Source: Pseudomonadota bacterium
GTDB taxonomy: Bacteria > Pseudomonadota > Gammaproteobacteria > Xanthomonadales > Rhodanobacteraceae
Direction: 5' to 3'
Length of the DNA stretch: 64,000 nt
Assembly: GCA_021792975.1 (NCBI GenBank)
Contig: JAJYTR010000005.1
Coordinates: 1-64,000, forward strand
Position numbers and translations under genes: made by a program. The notes below the pieces were generated by a model that was not told where the DNA came from, made no database searches, and saw only the letters and a list, made by a program, of their open reading frames with translations. Shown here in pieces: positions 1 to 5,883 of this stretch (its first letter is position 1; each line of letters starts with the position of its first letter).

Positions 1-479
1 GCACGCCCAAGCTGCTCTTGCATTCGCGTTGACGTTCCGCAGGAGATCGCAACGGCCTTCTCGGCTCTGAGCACATCACCCGCAAGCCAGAGCCGGTGCG
101 CACTGCGGTTGAGCAGCGGCATCGACTGCGGAACGACCCGATGATTGAGGTCGTATACCGTCGTCACCACCGGCAGACCGGATAGACCACGCGGAACGAG
201 CGTGTTCGCGGCCCAGAAGACATCGAGCCGGTCACGCCCGGCAAGTGCAGCCAGCCGGTAACGGGTCCAGAGCACCCTGGGCAGGCGGCCCATGACGCTG
301 TGATCCAGACGCACTGACCAGCGTGCCGACGGCAATTCGATCGACAGCGGGGCACTGGCATAAAGGATGAACTCCGCCTCCGGCATGCAGCCATCCAAAG
401 GCGCCAAGAGGCCATGCAAATAGCGGCCGATGCCGCTCATGGCACCGTGCAGCCGGCATGCATCGATGCCGATTCTCAT
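1..479 (-). CDS. Glycosyltransferase family 4 protein, N-terminal part (3' end truncated by window edge)
   Basis: Manual translation from ATG at 479: MRIGIDACRLHGAMSGIGRYLHGLLAPLDGCMPEAEFILYASAPL...VFWAANTLVPRGLSGLPVVTTVYDLNHRVVP; open to the window edge; ATGA overlap with the upstream methyltransferase stop. Not in the supplied ORF track. Confidence 0.8.
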   Translation of the reverse strand, partial: MRIGIDACRLHGAMSGIGRYLHGLLAPLDGCMPEAEFILYASAPLSIELPSARWSVRLDHSVMGRLPRVLWTRYRLAALAGRDRLDVFWAANTLVPRGLSGLPVVTTVYDLNHRVVPQSMPLLNRSAHRLWLAGDVLRAEKAVAISCGTSTRMQEQLGR

Positions 480-1261
480 GACCCTGGCCGGCCGTTCGGA
501 TCGACCGGCGCGTTGCCGAACAAACCGGAATCCTGCGGCCCGATGCGGCAGATCAGCGTCGGAATCATGCGCCGCATGCCGGCGATGAGTGTGTCGGGCA
601 GCCGCCGCGCCAGGCGCGCGCCGGCGCCGTGCGCCCCCTCGATGTCCAGTGTGGCGCGCAGGGCCTCGACTTCGAGATGACGCCAGGCGAAGCCCGCCTC
701 GGCCAGCAGCGCGTCGAGCCGCGACAGTGTCAGCGGCTCGCAGTCGTAGCGCCCGCCGCGCCGCAGCAGGCGCAGATAGGGCGTGCGCAGCGGCCGCGGC
801 AACCAGCTCAGGAAGGCCAGCCGGTAATGCGGCTCGACCAGCATCCAGCGGTTGGGCACGGCCAGATAGCCGACCGCGCCCGGCGCCATCACCCGGCGGA
901 TTTCGCGCAGATGCGCGAGCTGCGCCGCGCGTCCGCCGACGTGTTCGATGACGTGGTTGCTGAGCACCACATCGAAGCCGGCGTCGGCGAACGGCAGCGC
1001 AGTGTCGTGGACGAGGCGGAAGTCGTAGCCGTCGCGGACCAGACGCTGGTCCACCACGTCCACCGCGGTGACGCGGCACCGCAGCGTCGGGTGGCTGGCG
1101 AAGTAGTGCGCGATGCCGCCCGAGCCGGTGCCGATCTCCAGCAGGCGCAGCGGCTGCGGCCGCGCGGCCAGGTCGAGCAGGCGCTCGATCTTCAGGCCCT
1201 TGTGGCGCCGCGAGGGCAGGTCCAGCACGGCGTGCGGCTGGCGGGCGCCGGTCATCGGCAT
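476..1261 (-). CDS. Class I SAM-dependent methyltransferase
   Basis: Motif LRLLEIGTGSGGIAHYFA; later VVLSNHVIEHV typical of Methyltransf_11/25. Confidence 0.8.
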   Translation of the reverse strand: MPMTGARQPHAVLDLPSRRHKGLKIERLLDLAARPQPLRLLEIGTGSGGIAHYFASHPTLRCRVTAVDVVDQRLVRDGYDFRLVHDTALPFADAGFDVVLSNHVIEHVGGRAAQLAHLREIRRVMAPGAVGYLAVPNRWMLVEPHYRLAFLSWLPRPLRTPYLRLLRRGGRYDCEPLTLSRLDALLAEAGFAWRHLEVEALRATLDIEGAHGAGARLARRLPDTLIAGMRRMIPTLICRIGPQDSGLFGNAPVDPNGRPGS

Positions 1262-1690
1262 TCACTTGATTCCATGGCGCCACGGATCGCAGAGTTCCAC
1301 GCCCAGCGGCTCGAAGTCCATCGTGTTGCGTGTGGCCACCGTCAGCCGATGCACGTGCGCGGTGGCTGCGATCAACGCATCGCGTTCGGCGCGAGGGTCC
1401 GGCACATGCAGGGCGGCGCAGGCGCGCGCCACGGCAAGGTCGATGGGCAGGATGCGGCCGTCGAAGCTGGGCAGCACCTGGCTTTCAAGCCAGCGCCGCA
1501 ATGATCCGCCTTGGCGGGAGTCGCGGCGCTCGATCAACAGGATGCCCCGCTCCAGTTCGAGCACGGTGACGACCGAAATGAACAGCTGCAGGGCGGCTAC
1601 GCCTGCGGCCCAGCGCACCACGGCCGCGTTGGCCTTGCCGGTGCCCGCCTTGCGCAGTTCCGATACGACGTTGGTGTCGAGCAGATACAT
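1262..1690 (-). CDS. PIN-domain ribonuclease toxin, VapC/FitB-like
   Basis: MYLLDTNVVSELRK, VLELERGI, ERDALIAATA, TRNTMDF: PIN motif set present; adjacent Phd/YefM-like antitoxin. Confidence 0.88.
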   Translation of the reverse strand: MYLLDTNVVSELRKAGTGKANAAVVRWAAGVAALQLFISVVTVLELERGILLIERRDSRQGGSLRRWLESQVLPSFDGRILPIDLAVARACAALHVPDPRAERDALIAATAHVHRLTVATRNTMDFEPLGVELCDPWRHGIK

Positions 1691-1938
1691 CAGCGCAACC
1701 GGGCCGGCCGGCTGAACGACGTGACGCGCGGCGGATCAAAGGGAATCTCGCCGCCGTCAGCCTGCGCCAGACTGCTGACGATGCTGGCTTCGAGGCCCGC
1801 GAGTTTGCGATAGGCCTGCACCGACATCAGCACGAAGGAGGGCTTGCCGCGATCGGTGATGAACACCGGTCCGCGCTGCGCCAGTCTCTTGGCCTGGCCG
1901 GTGTCCTGGTTGAATTCGCGGCTGGTCAGAGTCGCCAT
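1690..1938 (-). CDS. Phd/YefM-family antitoxin
   Basis: TLTSREFNQDTGQAKRLAQRGPVFITDRGKPSFVLMSVQAYRKL; stop overlaps toxin start (TGATG). Confidence 0.87.
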   Translation of the reverse strand: MATLTSREFNQDTGQAKRLAQRGPVFITDRGKPSFVLMSVQAYRKLAGLEASIVSSLAQADGGEIPFDPPRVTSFSRPARLR

Positions 1939-2085
1939 GGCGCACCTCGCCGGATGACTGTTGGTAGCAACAAGTCTACATCGGCAGATGACTGCCGGAA
2001 GCCCTGATCATGGATCGAGTGCCAAGAGCGCCCGGAGATGCTGTGCCGGAGACCGTACTCCGCTGCGTCGCTTGCACGAAGCAGA

Positions 2086-3234
2086 CTAGCCGCGAGACAG
2101 GGGATCGATGTGCGCAGCAAGCGCCTCGCCGAAGCACGGCCAGGCGAAGCGTCCGGCAAATCCCTGCACGCGCCCGGGTGGCATGGGCTGCGCTAGCAGG
2201 CGCAGCACGGCGGCAGCGAACCCGTCGGCATCGCCAGGGGCCAGCAGGGCACCGCTTTCGCCGTCGGCCACGGCGTCGACCACGCCGCCGGTCGCATAGG
2301 CCACGGTGGGCAGGCCGTGGGCCGCGGCCTCCACGGCGACCATGCCGAAGCCCTCGATGTCGCCGGGCAGTTCGCGAATCGGAAAGACGAGGATGTCCGC
2401 CGCGAAATAGGCATCGGCGAGATCGGCATCGGGCAAATTACCCAAAAACCGCACGTGTCCCCCCACCCCCGCCTGCGCCGCCGCCGCGCGGATGCTGTCC
2501 GGCGTCTGCGCTTCGGCGAACAGCGCCTGCGCAGGCACGTCACCGACGACCAGCAACTGCACGTCCGGACGCCGGGCCGCGATCTGCGGCAGGACTTCGG
2601 CGACGAACTCGCGCAGGCCCTTGCGTGCGGTCAGGCGGCCCACGGACAGCAGCACGGCGGCGTCGCCCAGGCCGTGCCGGGCGCGGAAGCGCGCGCGCGC
2701 CTGCGCGTCCGGCTGCGGCAGCTCCACGCCCGGGTGCACGATGCCGATGCGCTCGCGCGGCACACCGGCGCGCCCGGCCAGGGCGGCGGTGGCGCGGCTG
2801 TTGGCGATCACGCGATCCATACGGCGCAGCGCTGGCAGCCACAATGCGCGGTAGACGGCGTGCGGGACCACCAGATCCAGGCCGTGCACGTAGGCGGCGC
2901 AGCGCGCACCGCTGAGCCTTGCCGCCAGCCAGGCCAGCGGCGCGGTCAGCCCGCTGCCGGCCAGCACCACATCCGGGCGCGAACGCCGCGCCGCGCGCAG
3001 GGCACGCCAGCCCGCCAGCAGCAGGAACCGCCACAGCGGGCGCAGCGGTACCTCGATGGCCGTGACGCCGGCCGGCACTTGCGCCGCCGCGCCGTCCGGG
3101 CCGATCACCGTCACCTCGTAGGCATGCGTCAACTCATCGGCGAGATGCCAGTTCAGCCGTTCCATGCCGCCCCACAGCGGCGGAAAATTGCGGGTGACCA
3201 GCAGCAGGCGCGATTTGCCGGTGGCGATGCTCAT
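2086..3234 (-). CDS. Glycosyltransferase family 4 protein
   Basis: TRNFPPLWGGMERLNWHLADEL N-terminus; ADILVFPIRELPGDIEGFGMVAVEAAAHGLPTVAYATGGVVDAV GT4 signature. Confidence 0.9.
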   Translation of the reverse strand: MSIATGKSRLLLVTRNFPPLWGGMERLNWHLADELTHAYEVTVIGPDGAAAQVPAGVTAIEVPLRPLWRFLLLAGWRALRAARRSRPDVVLAGSGLTAPLAWLAARLSGARCAAYVHGLDLVVPHAVYRALWLPALRRMDRVIANSRATAALAGRAGVPRERIGIVHPGVELPQPDAQARARFRARHGLGDAAVLLSVGRLTARKGLREFVAEVLPQIAARRPDVQLLVVGDVPAQALFAEAQTPDSIRAAAAQAGVGGHVRFLGNLPDADLADAYFAADILVFPIRELPGDIEGFGMVAVEAAAHGLPTVAYATGGVVDAVADGESGALLAPGDADGFAAAVLRLLAQPMPPGRVQGFAGRFAWPCFGEALAAHIDPLSRG

Positions 3235-3246
3235 CCGTACCGCCGC

Positions 3247-3651
3247 TCAGCGCACCACGCCCACGCCCGCCGCCATGGCCGCCTCGGCCAGTGCCCCATC
3301 CTGGGTGGCAATGGGCAACTGCAGGCGCAGGGCCAGTTCCAGATAGGCCGCGTCATAACTGGACAGGTCGTAACGCAGCGCGAGCGAGAAAACGGCCTGG
3401 GTGGCAGGTGGCTGCGCATCGACGGCGATCGGCAAGGCGGCAATCTGCTCGGCCACTTCGCGCGCCTGGCTGGCGATCATCGCGCCGCGCTTGCATGCGG
3501 TACGCAGCACGTTGGCGAGTCCCAGAGGCCACAGCCCCGGCGCAATGGCGCCATCATCCAGCAGCCGCCGCGCGATGGCCTCGGTGTAATCGGTTGATTG
3601 ATTGGCCAGAAACCAGCCGCACACGACCGAGTTGTCGATGATGAAGGGCAT
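3247..3651 (-). CDS. PIN-domain protein (type II toxin family)
   Basis: MPFIIDNSVVCGWFL...YDLSSYDAAYLELALRLQLPIATQDGAL; paired with Phd antitoxin. Confidence 0.85.
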   Translation of the reverse strand: MPFIIDNSVVCGWFLANQSTDYTEAIARRLLDDGAIAPGLWPLGLANVLRTACKRGAMIASQAREVAEQIAALPIAVDAQPPATQAVFSLALRYDLSSYDAAYLELALRLQLPIATQDGALAEAAMAAGVGVVR

Positions 3652-3909
3652 TCAGTCCGCGCCTTGGCGCGCGATGGCCTTGATGTCGCCGTCCAGCGAG
3701 ATGCCCGCACGCAGGGTACGCAGCCGCTCGAATCCGGCAGCGACGCGCTTGCGTGCCTCGTTGCGACTGGCCTTGCCGGCAGCGGGCTCCGCGACCAGCC
3801 GGGCCACGGGCGCGCCACGACGGGTGATCGAAACGGTCTCGCCCTGCTCCACGGCTGCGAGCAATTCCGAGAATCGATTCTTGGCTTCGTAGACCGGAAC
3901 GGTTTTCAT
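3652..3909 (-). CDS. Phd/YefM-family antitoxin
   Basis: MKTVPVYEAKNRFSELLAAVEQGETVSITRRGAPVARLV; stop directly abuts the toxin ATG. Start at 3909 preferred over the upstream 3924 start. Confidence 0.87.
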   Translation of the reverse strand: MKTVPVYEAKNRFSELLAAVEQGETVSITRRGAPVARLVAEPAAGKASRNEARKRVAAGFERLRTLRAGISLDGDIKAIARQGAD

Positions 3910-4094
3910 GGCACGCCTGCCCATGGATATGGCTAGCTATATTATCCATCGCGGTGGTGGGTGGTTTCAACCGCGCCGGATCACGAGCGCGGCGGGTCAG
4001 GCGCGGCGGCTTTGGGCCACAACGCCCCACAGCGGCGGAAAGTTGCGGATGTGATGCAGGCCGGTTCATGGGCACGCCAGGGGCACCCGGAAAC

Positions 4095-4571
4095 TCACGT
4101 CCAGCCACGATGCGCGATTTCATCGACCAGCCGCCGGACTGTCTCCACCAGCGTCGGAACGAAGCGATGACCGGCCTGCAGATTGCCGGCCAGAAGGATC
4201 GGGTCGTCGACGTACTCGTAAATCATCTGATTGCGCAATTGGCGGGCTTCGACCCATTGGTCGGCCGACGCGATCCATCCCATGCGCTCGGCACAATCGA
4301 GGTTGTCGATCGCCGCGCGGACAGGCTCTCGCAGGGCGGCCAACAGTGCCGGCACGAGCTTGTCGCCGAGTGTGTCCTGCAACCTCCCGAAGCGGGCCAC
4401 GAACGCATCCACCCGCTCGGCCAGTACCGGATCGGTATCGAACTGCCGCAGCCTTTCCGGCGTCAGCGGCACAGCGAAGAGCCGCTCGTTCGTGGCGAGC
4501 AGATGAGCCGACTCGCGCTGCACGATTTTCACCAGGAATTGCAGTCGCTGCAGATGGGCAGGCGCATTCAC
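4095..4571 (-). CDS. HEPN-domain (HepT-like) protein
   Basis: GTG start overlapping MNT stop by 4 nt; LRNQMIYEYVDDP at the position of the HEPN RNxxxHxY motif; small, paired with MNT nucleotidyltransferase. Confidence 0.72.
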   Translation of the reverse strand: MNAPAHLQRLQFLVKIVQRESAHLLATNERLFAVPLTPERLRQFDTDPVLAERVDAFVARFGRLQDTLGDKLVPALLAALREPVRAAIDNLDCAERMGWIASADQWVEARQLRNQMIYEYVDDPILLAGNLQAGHRFVPTLVETVRRLVDEIAHRGWT

Positions 4572-4900
4572 AGCAGCACTCCTTCACGTCGGGCCACCTC
4601 GTGAATGGGCGCCATGCGCAGGTTGGGCGCAGCCAGCACCACATCGACCTTGCGCCCGCCCAGCGCGCGACTGGCGCGTACTGAAAACCGTGCTCCGGCA
4701 AGGCCGGGCTGGTCGATCGGTTCGGCCACTTCGACCAGCAGATCCACATCGCCGCTGCGCGCCGTGTCGTCCACGCGCGAACCGAACAGCCGCACCTGCA
4801 CGCCGGCGCCGAACTGCTCGGCGGCCAGTCGCTTGATCGCGGCGATGTGTTGCGGCTGCAGGCGCATCGGCATTCCGTCCGCATCTCGGGCGGTGCGCAC
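4568..4900 (-). CDS. MNT-type nucleotidyltransferase (MntA-like antitoxin)
   Basis: VRLFGSRVDDTARSGDVDLLVEV (GSx10DxD) plus third Asp in RKVDVVLA. Confidence 0.82.
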   Translation of the reverse strand: MRTARDADGMPMRLQPQHIAAIKRLAAEQFGAGVQVRLFGSRVDDTARSGDVDLLVEVAEPIDQPGLAGARFSVRASRALGGRKVDVVLAAPNLRMAPIHEVARREGVLL

Positions 4901-5034
4901 CCCGATTCACGGGGTGCGCGATCCAGCGTAGCGCCATCGTCCGGGGCGAAGCTGCCCGCCTGCGCGATGGCGCCGCCCGCGCGGGCCACACCGCAACCGC
5001 ACTCCGCCCGGCCCGCCACAACGGCGGCGGGCAC

Positions 5035-5883
5035 TTACCCCTCGCGCTTGTAGGTCAGGTTGGTGATCTGCTCGGAGATCAGGCCGATCAGGAACACGAT
5101 GACCGCGGCGCTCCACAGCAGCGCGCTCATGTTGGTCAGGCGGCCGGCCTCGAGATAGGTATGCAGGTAGTTGATCAGGCCGAGCACGAAGAACAGCACG
5201 CTGGCCGGCAGGAACAGTTTCAGCGGCGAGTACAGCGTGGCGATCTTGAAGATGATCAGCAGGAAACGCACGCCGTCGCGCAGGGGCCGGATGTGGCTCC
5301 TGCCGATGCGCTGGGCCACCTCGATCGGCACGTAGGCGACCGGGTAGGCGCTGCGGAAGAAGGCCATGGTGCTGGTGGTGGGGTACGAGAACCCGTTGGG
5401 CAGCAGGTGCAGGAACTCGCGGAACTTCTCCGCGCGCACGGCGCGGAAACCGCTGGTCAGATCCAGCACCTTGTGGCCGGTCATCCAGCTCGCCATGCGG
5501 TTGTACAGGCCGTTGGCCAGCCCGCGTCCCACGCCGGCCTGGCCCGACCAGGCGCGCGCGCCGACGACCATGTCGTAGCCCTGTTCCAGCCGGGCCACGA
5601 GGCGCTCGATGTCGGCCGGATCGTGCTGGCCGTCGCCGTCCATGAACACCAGCACCCTGCCCTTGGCGGCGCGCGCGCCGCGTTTGACCGCCGCGCCGTT
5701 GCCCATCGGATAGGGCGCGCTGAGGCAGGCGACGCCGAGCTGCTCGCACAGCGCACGGGTGCCGTCGGTGGAGCCGTCGTCGAGCACCAGGATTTCGGCA
5801 TCCGGCTGCGCCGCGCGCAGGCGCGGCAGCAGCCCGGCCAGCGCCGGCGCTTCGTTCTTGGCGGGCAGGATGATGCTGAGCAC
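5035..5883 (-). CDS. Glycosyltransferase family 2 (polyprenyl-phosphate glycosyltransferase-like)
   Basis: MLSIILPAKNEAPALAGLLPRLRAAQPDAEILVLDDGSTDGT; MDGDGQHDP; C-terminal TM segments. Confidence 0.9.
   Translation of the reverse strand: MLSIILPAKNEAPALAGLLPRLRAAQPDAEILVLDDGSTDGTRALCEQLGVACLSAPYPMGNGAAVKRGARAAKGRVLVFMDGDGQHDPADIERLVARLEQGYDMVVGARAWSGQAGVGRGLANGLYNRMASWMTGHKVLDLTSGFRAVRAEKFREFLHLLPNGFSYPTTSTMAFFRSAYPVAYVPIEVAQRIGRSHIRPLRDGVRFLLIIFKIATLYSPLKLFLPASVLFFVLGLINYLHTYLEAGRLTNMSALLWSAAVIVFLIGLISEQITNLTYKREG

Follow-up and report, generated by a model that had tools for sequence, protein, structure and literature searches.

Closest described systems

Among the closest described relatives of the gene pair analysed here, HepT/MntA of Shewanella oneidensis (SO_3166/SO_3165) is a type VII toxin-antitoxin system in which the nucleotidyltransferase MntA adds AMPs to Y104 of the HEPN toxin HepT (PMC7641770). 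The H102A substitution abolishes the toxicity of HepT and Y104A does not (PMC4621449). In the HEPN-MNT system of Legionella pneumophila (PDB 8xdj, 8yuf, 8xeh, 8xeo), the corresponding H103A mutation barely affected RNase activity and the mutant protein still arrested cell growth, R98A likewise keeps RNase activity and toxicity, the active site was assigned to Q44/E47 with Mg, and the AMP carried by Y105 stacks with H103 (PMC11586414). That some HEPN-M proteins lack the Rx4-6H motif is known, as the motif is described as "mostly conserved (83%)" in this group, and most of the HEPN domains that are fused to nucleotidyltransferases are inactive (PMC3710099). Class I HEPN-MNT pairs are defined by an RX4HXY motif with an acceptor tyrosine in the HEPN loop and by a GSX10DXD motif in the MNT, while Class II pairs keep the tyrosine and lack RX4H (PMC7641770).

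A HEPN-MNT pair of the short-MNT kind

The window, by which we mean the whole 64,000-nucleotide stretch of DNA that was analysed, carries a cluster of three toxin-antitoxin-like pairs with the following features:

1262..1690, minus strand: PIN/VapC protein, the third toxin of the cluster (PF01850 well above cut-off)
1690..1938, minus strand: Phd/YefM antitoxin of the third pair (PF02604)
3247..3651, minus strand: PIN-domain toxin of the adjacent pair, in which G44 (GGA, 3520-3522) replaces the conserved catalytic Glu
3652..3924, minus strand: Phd/YefM antitoxin of the adjacent PIN pair (PF02604, TIGR01552)
4095..4571, minus strand: HEPN-fold toxin-like protein, an open reading frame of 158 aa with a GTG start, stop codon included
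4212..4235, minus strand: motif R113-N-Q-M-I-Y118-E-Y120 (family consensus RNQMVHEY)
4212..4214, minus strand: TAC codon of Tyr120, equivalent of the AMP-acceptor tyrosine (Y104 in Shewanella, Y105 in Legionella), invariant in 107/107 members
4218..4220, minus strand: TAC codon of Tyr118, which replaces the conserved catalytic-type His (sequence and family alignment)
4568..4867, minus strand: MNT (minimal nucleotidyltransferase) antitoxin-like partner, 99 aa from a family-conserved ATG (PF01909 above cut-off)

The MNT gene lies upstream and overlaps the start of the HEPN gene by 4 bases (GTGA), as it does in most relatives; an alternative GTG start at 4900 is also listed for the MNT frame.

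Taken alone, the window HEPN protein matched nothing in Pfam, NCBIfam or PADLOC in single-sequence searches, and its family identity surfaces only through the family alignment. Relatives were gathered by a scan of GTDB genome contigs, which gave 80 loci, and a sample of the order added a few more; alignment A1 contains 79 HEPN proteins. PF01934 (HepT-like) is matched by 66 of these 79 and PF08780, weakly, by 51, the window copy matching neither. A search with the A1 profile retrieved HI0074 of Haemophilus influenzae (1jog, E 0.0057), aligned over the GLI..W..R.RN...H.Y region; TTHA0048 and the Legionella HEPN toxin were weaker hits, and all three alignments cover W...RN...H.Y. HHalign comparison of A1 with 28 PF08780 proteins gave 95.6% with the His columns aligned. 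The AlphaFold model of the window HEPN (pLDDT 93.3) has the HEPN helical-bundle fold that marks HEPN-MNT pairs in the broad sense, and its best PDB matches in Foldseek include the Legionella, Shewanella and Aphanizomenon HEPN toxins and HI0074, with probabilities of 0.9-1.0 at weak E-values of 0.01 to 0.5; the top matches, all HEPN toxins, have probability 1.00 and TM scores of 0.56-0.66. For the MNT, the nearest structures are 8xeo (Legionella MNT) and 1no5 (HI0073), with E below 0.001, and its model lacks the long C-terminal helix. These profile, fold and MNT-model matches identify the pair at 4095-4867 as a HEPN-MNT module of the short-MNT kind, nearest to Legionella HEPN-MNT and HI0073/HI0074. 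The family is common: of 369 genomes sampled from the class, 66 match its profile. Nevertheless, neither Pfam nor NCBIfam has a model that the window protein reaches, and a dedicated model for family A1 is missing.

The pair differs from each described system. The Legionella proteins are the top Foldseek match for both partners and share the gene order (MNT, then HEPN) and the tyrosine of the RX4HXY loop, but the window HEPN has Tyr for His, is only ~12% identical over the fold and shows no recognisable Q44/E47 metal site, residue equivalence being uncertain at such distance; in a profile alignment of uncertain helix register, these two columns fall on A59/G62 or R60/R63. HI0073/HI0074 (PDB 1no5, 1jog; PF08780) is the best-aligned natural family by profile, although the window family has the N-terminal signature RFxRLQDTLGDK instead of the IQxFEFTxELxWK of PF08780, and the sequences indicate that Legionella Q44/E47 correspond to Q and E in the IQxFE part of the PF08780 signature. 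With HepT/MntA the window pair shares the HEPN fold, the R and acceptor Tyr of RX4HXY, and the G-S and three acids of MntA; in contrast, it has Tyr at the equivalent of His102, its MNT lacks alpha-4, and the NCBIfam MntA model gives a score of 16.5 where 60 is the cut-off. Measured against the Class I definition (PMC7641770), the window HEPN reads RX4YXY, whereas the family consensus agrees with RX4HXY (99/107), the acceptor tyrosine is present (Tyr120), and GSX10DXD is absent from the MNT of the window and of the whole family, where the spacing is 9 rather than 10, as it is also compared with Legionella MNT. Because of this GSx9DxD spacing, the pair falls outside HepT/MntA as strictly defined. 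It resembles the HEPN-M subset and Class II pairs in that a HEPN adjoins an MNT and the catalytic motif is partly missing, but one recent substitution accounts for the loss in the window copy, the sister keeps His and there is no His-less clade.

Tyrosine replaces the conserved histidine of the HEPN loop

Positions 4218-4220 read GTA on the plus strand and TAC (Tyr) on the minus strand, within the frame 4095-4571(-). The surrounding protein sequence is ...WVEARQLRNQMIYEYVDDP... and the motif itself is RNQMIYEY. Residues were counted in 107 non-redundant members, window included, after near-identical copies had been taken out. Column 118 is occupied by H in 99, by Y in 4 (including the window), by R in 2, and by Q and D in 1 each, the Asp copy (L069) being a pseudogene with two stop codons. 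In the same members R113 is found in 106, N114 in 104 and Y120 in all 107, and the invariant residues of A1 are R60, Q65, E95, W106, R113 and Y120. The closest relative, L012, is 73% identical and carries CAC at this codon within an otherwise near-identical stretch. The preliminary description of this DNA had reported a His-to-Tyr change at this site, one transition away from CAC, and had called for an alignment with the HEPN family; the alignment bears out the change and identifies His as the norm at column 118. The notion that Tyr is the usual residue of an active subfamily was thus rejected, given His in 99/107 and in the sister. Tyr118 is accordingly a derived, lineage-specific replacement, because L012 has His: a single coding-strand C-to-T transition (CAC to TAC) swapped the conserved His118 of the toxin for Tyr.

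An alternative source of the tyrosine is a base-call or consensus error, with His in the organism itself. The source assembly is a metagenome-derived draft (76% complete, 101 contigs), the difference is a single base and a second strain was not found; the genome copy that was searched has the same sequence as the window but comes from the same assembly and is not independent evidence. Against an error, the same replacement occurs in three unrelated assemblies (L040, L081, L167) and the neighbouring frames are intact, so that local accuracy is not obviously poor. We regard an error as highly improbable.

Two small observations concern the family at large. In L188 (1243-1950, reverse complement coordinates), one open frame joins MNT and HEPN in a natural fusion with RNEVAHQY intact. 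L079 encodes a family HEPN with intact His; no MNT was found upstream of its HEPN (upstream of 1286), and a transposase-like frame ends near the HEPN start there.

The histidine has been lost repeatedly

Other His-less relatives carry Tyr (L040, L081, L167), Arg (L071, L077) or Gln (L169); L167 and L169 turned up later, when 369 genomes of the class were searched. A DNA pattern search of 399 genomes for more Tyr-bearing copies returned the window and one unrelated Ser-Asn site only. In the tree, L040, L081, L071, L077 and the window are lone tips beside His-bearing sisters, many inner branches being poorly supported, and His was lost at least seven separate times in the family. The codons seen at these losses (TAC, TAT, CGT, CGC and CAG) all differ from a His codon by a single base, and comparisons with sisters indicate single-base changes, at least four of them to Y. 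The replacements (4 Y, 2 R and 1 Q, plus D in the pseudogene) therefore look like products of single-base mutation of the His codon, and transition-prone mutation of such a codon would readily give Y. The preliminary description had further suggested that the change adds a modifiable tyrosine. Y120 is still present and invariant, the R, Q and D replacements fit mutation, and a gain of a second AMPylation tyrosine finds no support.

His is missing from 7/106 open frames, Tyr120 from 0 and Arg113 from 1. The difference between His and Tyr120 (7 v 0, two-sided p 0.016, with the tree ignored and the choice of residue uncorrected; 7 v 1 against Arg113) is suggestive of an excess of His loss. It would be expected if, in this short-MNT group, the RX4HXY loop were mainly an AMPylation and regulatory site and catalysis resided in other residues, the change to Tyr118 then being largely silent for toxicity and perhaps even keeping the AMP stacking of Legionella His103. 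Legionella H103A and R98A, both of which keep RNase activity and toxicity, and the stacking of the Y105 AMP on H103 speak for such tolerance, as do the intact MNT beside most His-less copies and the unaccelerated evolution of the window gene (see below). However, metal ligands equivalent to Q44/E47 are not apparent in the window family, a His that is 93% conserved across large divergence needs a reason, and Shewanella H102A is inactive. The locus L040 is also difficult to reconcile with a toxic protein, if expressed. There, at 2050-2560, two frameshifts break the MNT gene and the neighbouring HEPN frame is open and carries Tyr at the His position. On balance we find a largely silent change doubtful.

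The substituted gene is otherwise conserved

Two of the 49 positions with 90% or higher conservation differ in the window copy, H118Y and A130N, the latter also being present in L012; H118Y is thus its only private change among them. Nei-Gojobori dN/dS between the window and L012 is 0.20 for HEPN and 0.31 for MNT, and relative-rate tests against six outgroups are balanced, with no acceleration (9 v 10, 12 v 12 and 10 v 10 changes); these figures cover all of the branch after the divergence from L012 and can neither date the loss of His nor show later selection. General pseudogene decay of the window HEPN was rejected on these grounds, and by these comparisons no broad decay has accumulated in the gene. 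A literature search returned nothing useful on toxin decay by active-site mutation with the antitoxin retained.

The MNT partner keeps the catalytic residues G29, S30, D40, D42 and the third acid D75, which are invariant in 70 aligned relatives, and PF01909, Foldseek and D40/D42/D75 together identify a Pol-beta nucleotidyltransferase fold with its catalytic acids. An earlier statement that this protein keeps a GSx10DxD site holds for the catalytic residues but was off by one in the spacing, which is GSx9DxD in the window and in all aligned family members. MNT is likewise intact beside most His-less HEPN copies (L081, L071, L077, L167 and L169). As a separate observation, the residue two positions ahead of DxD is altered in the window MNT alone (G38S); all 69 aligned relatives have Gly there.

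Such retention is also what a regulatory pseudo-toxin would display, that is, a dead HEPN kept by selection to bind or buffer MNT, or to serve as its AMPylation substrate or RNA-binding partner. The preliminary description had raised this option, and the preserved remainder of the motif allows it, but we found no positive evidence beyond retention. The remaining protein is conserved under purifying selection, with the acceptor Tyr and the MNT catalytic residues intact, and there are precedents in the Class II pairs, which keep Tyr without RX4H (PMC7641770), and in the mostly inactive HEPN domains fused to nucleotidyltransferases (PMC3710099). Yet the losses lie at isolated tips spread over the tree and do not form an inherited His-less clade, like recent decay, the selection signal covers the entire branch back to the L012 split, and the only other HEPN-MNT pair found in the genome belongs to another subfamily (PF01934) and offers no obvious cross-partner. 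We therefore consider a pseudo-toxin of this kind very unlikely.

Predicted consequences for the toxin

The reading that we favour, and judge rather likely, is that the window carries a recent loss-of-function allele of a HEPN toxin that is conserved in other respects, with its RNase activity lost or strongly reduced. Of the R and H of Rx4-6H that characterise active HEPN ribonucleases, the window copy keeps R113 and has Tyr in place of H118. The protein most likely still folds and dimerises, and MNT can most likely still AMPylate it on Tyr120, while RNA cleavage would be lost or strongly reduced; by the Shewanella model, the window HEPN would thus be RNase-dead yet AMPylatable on Tyr120. That the change may inactivate the RNase had been proposed from the DNA alone, and the proposal is likely but not safe, as Shewanella H102A (PMC4621449) agrees with it and the toxic Legionella H103A (PMC11586414) does not. 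L040 favours inactivity, since survival without antitoxin fits a harmless HEPN, with the caveat that this locus comes from a metagenome bin and may not express its HEPN.

Taken on its own, the window locus resembles ordinary toxin decay rather than a new mechanism. The wider pattern in the family alignment is that single mutations have repeatedly removed the conserved HEPN His, whereas the AMPylated tyrosine and MNT persist. It is conceivable, if quite unlikely, that the loop His of short-MNT pairs is dispensable or selectively discarded, with the acceptor tyrosine and the nucleotidyltransferase retained, and that the pair acts as an RNase-free AMPylation switch or buffer, in which case the window would represent one of several independent toxin-to-regulator conversions. 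The natural variants L040, L081 and L167 (Tyr), L071 and L077 (Arg) and L169 (Gln) form a set that could test the disagreement between Shewanella (His essential) and Legionella (His dispensable).

The adjacent PIN toxin and the genomic setting

In the adjacent PIN protein, Gly44 (GGA, 3520-3522) stands where all well-aligned relatives carry the catalytic Glu; D6, D100, D118 and the adjoining antitoxin are intact. The preliminary description had mentioned a PIN change at 3520. Its further remark that two of the three toxins look disarmed is correct in that HEPN and PIN have one active-site substitution each, but the inactivity of HEPN is not certain.

Positions 1-5035, which hold the toxin-antitoxin cluster and neighbouring glycan genes, show no DNA similarity to G230, the only genome of the same genus in the sample; G230 lacks the pair and has different flanking glycan genes. 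Similarity resumes at ~5036, at the end of a glycosyltransferase gene, after which that genome has different glycan genes. Carriage by a phage or plasmid was rejected, as no relatives of the pair were found in the plasmid collection (tblastn) or in viral contigs. Elsewhere in the source genome (L092, contig C3, 1121-1797), we observed a second HEPN-MNT pair, of the PF01934 type, in which RNAVAHGY (RNxxxHxY) and GSx10DxD are intact.
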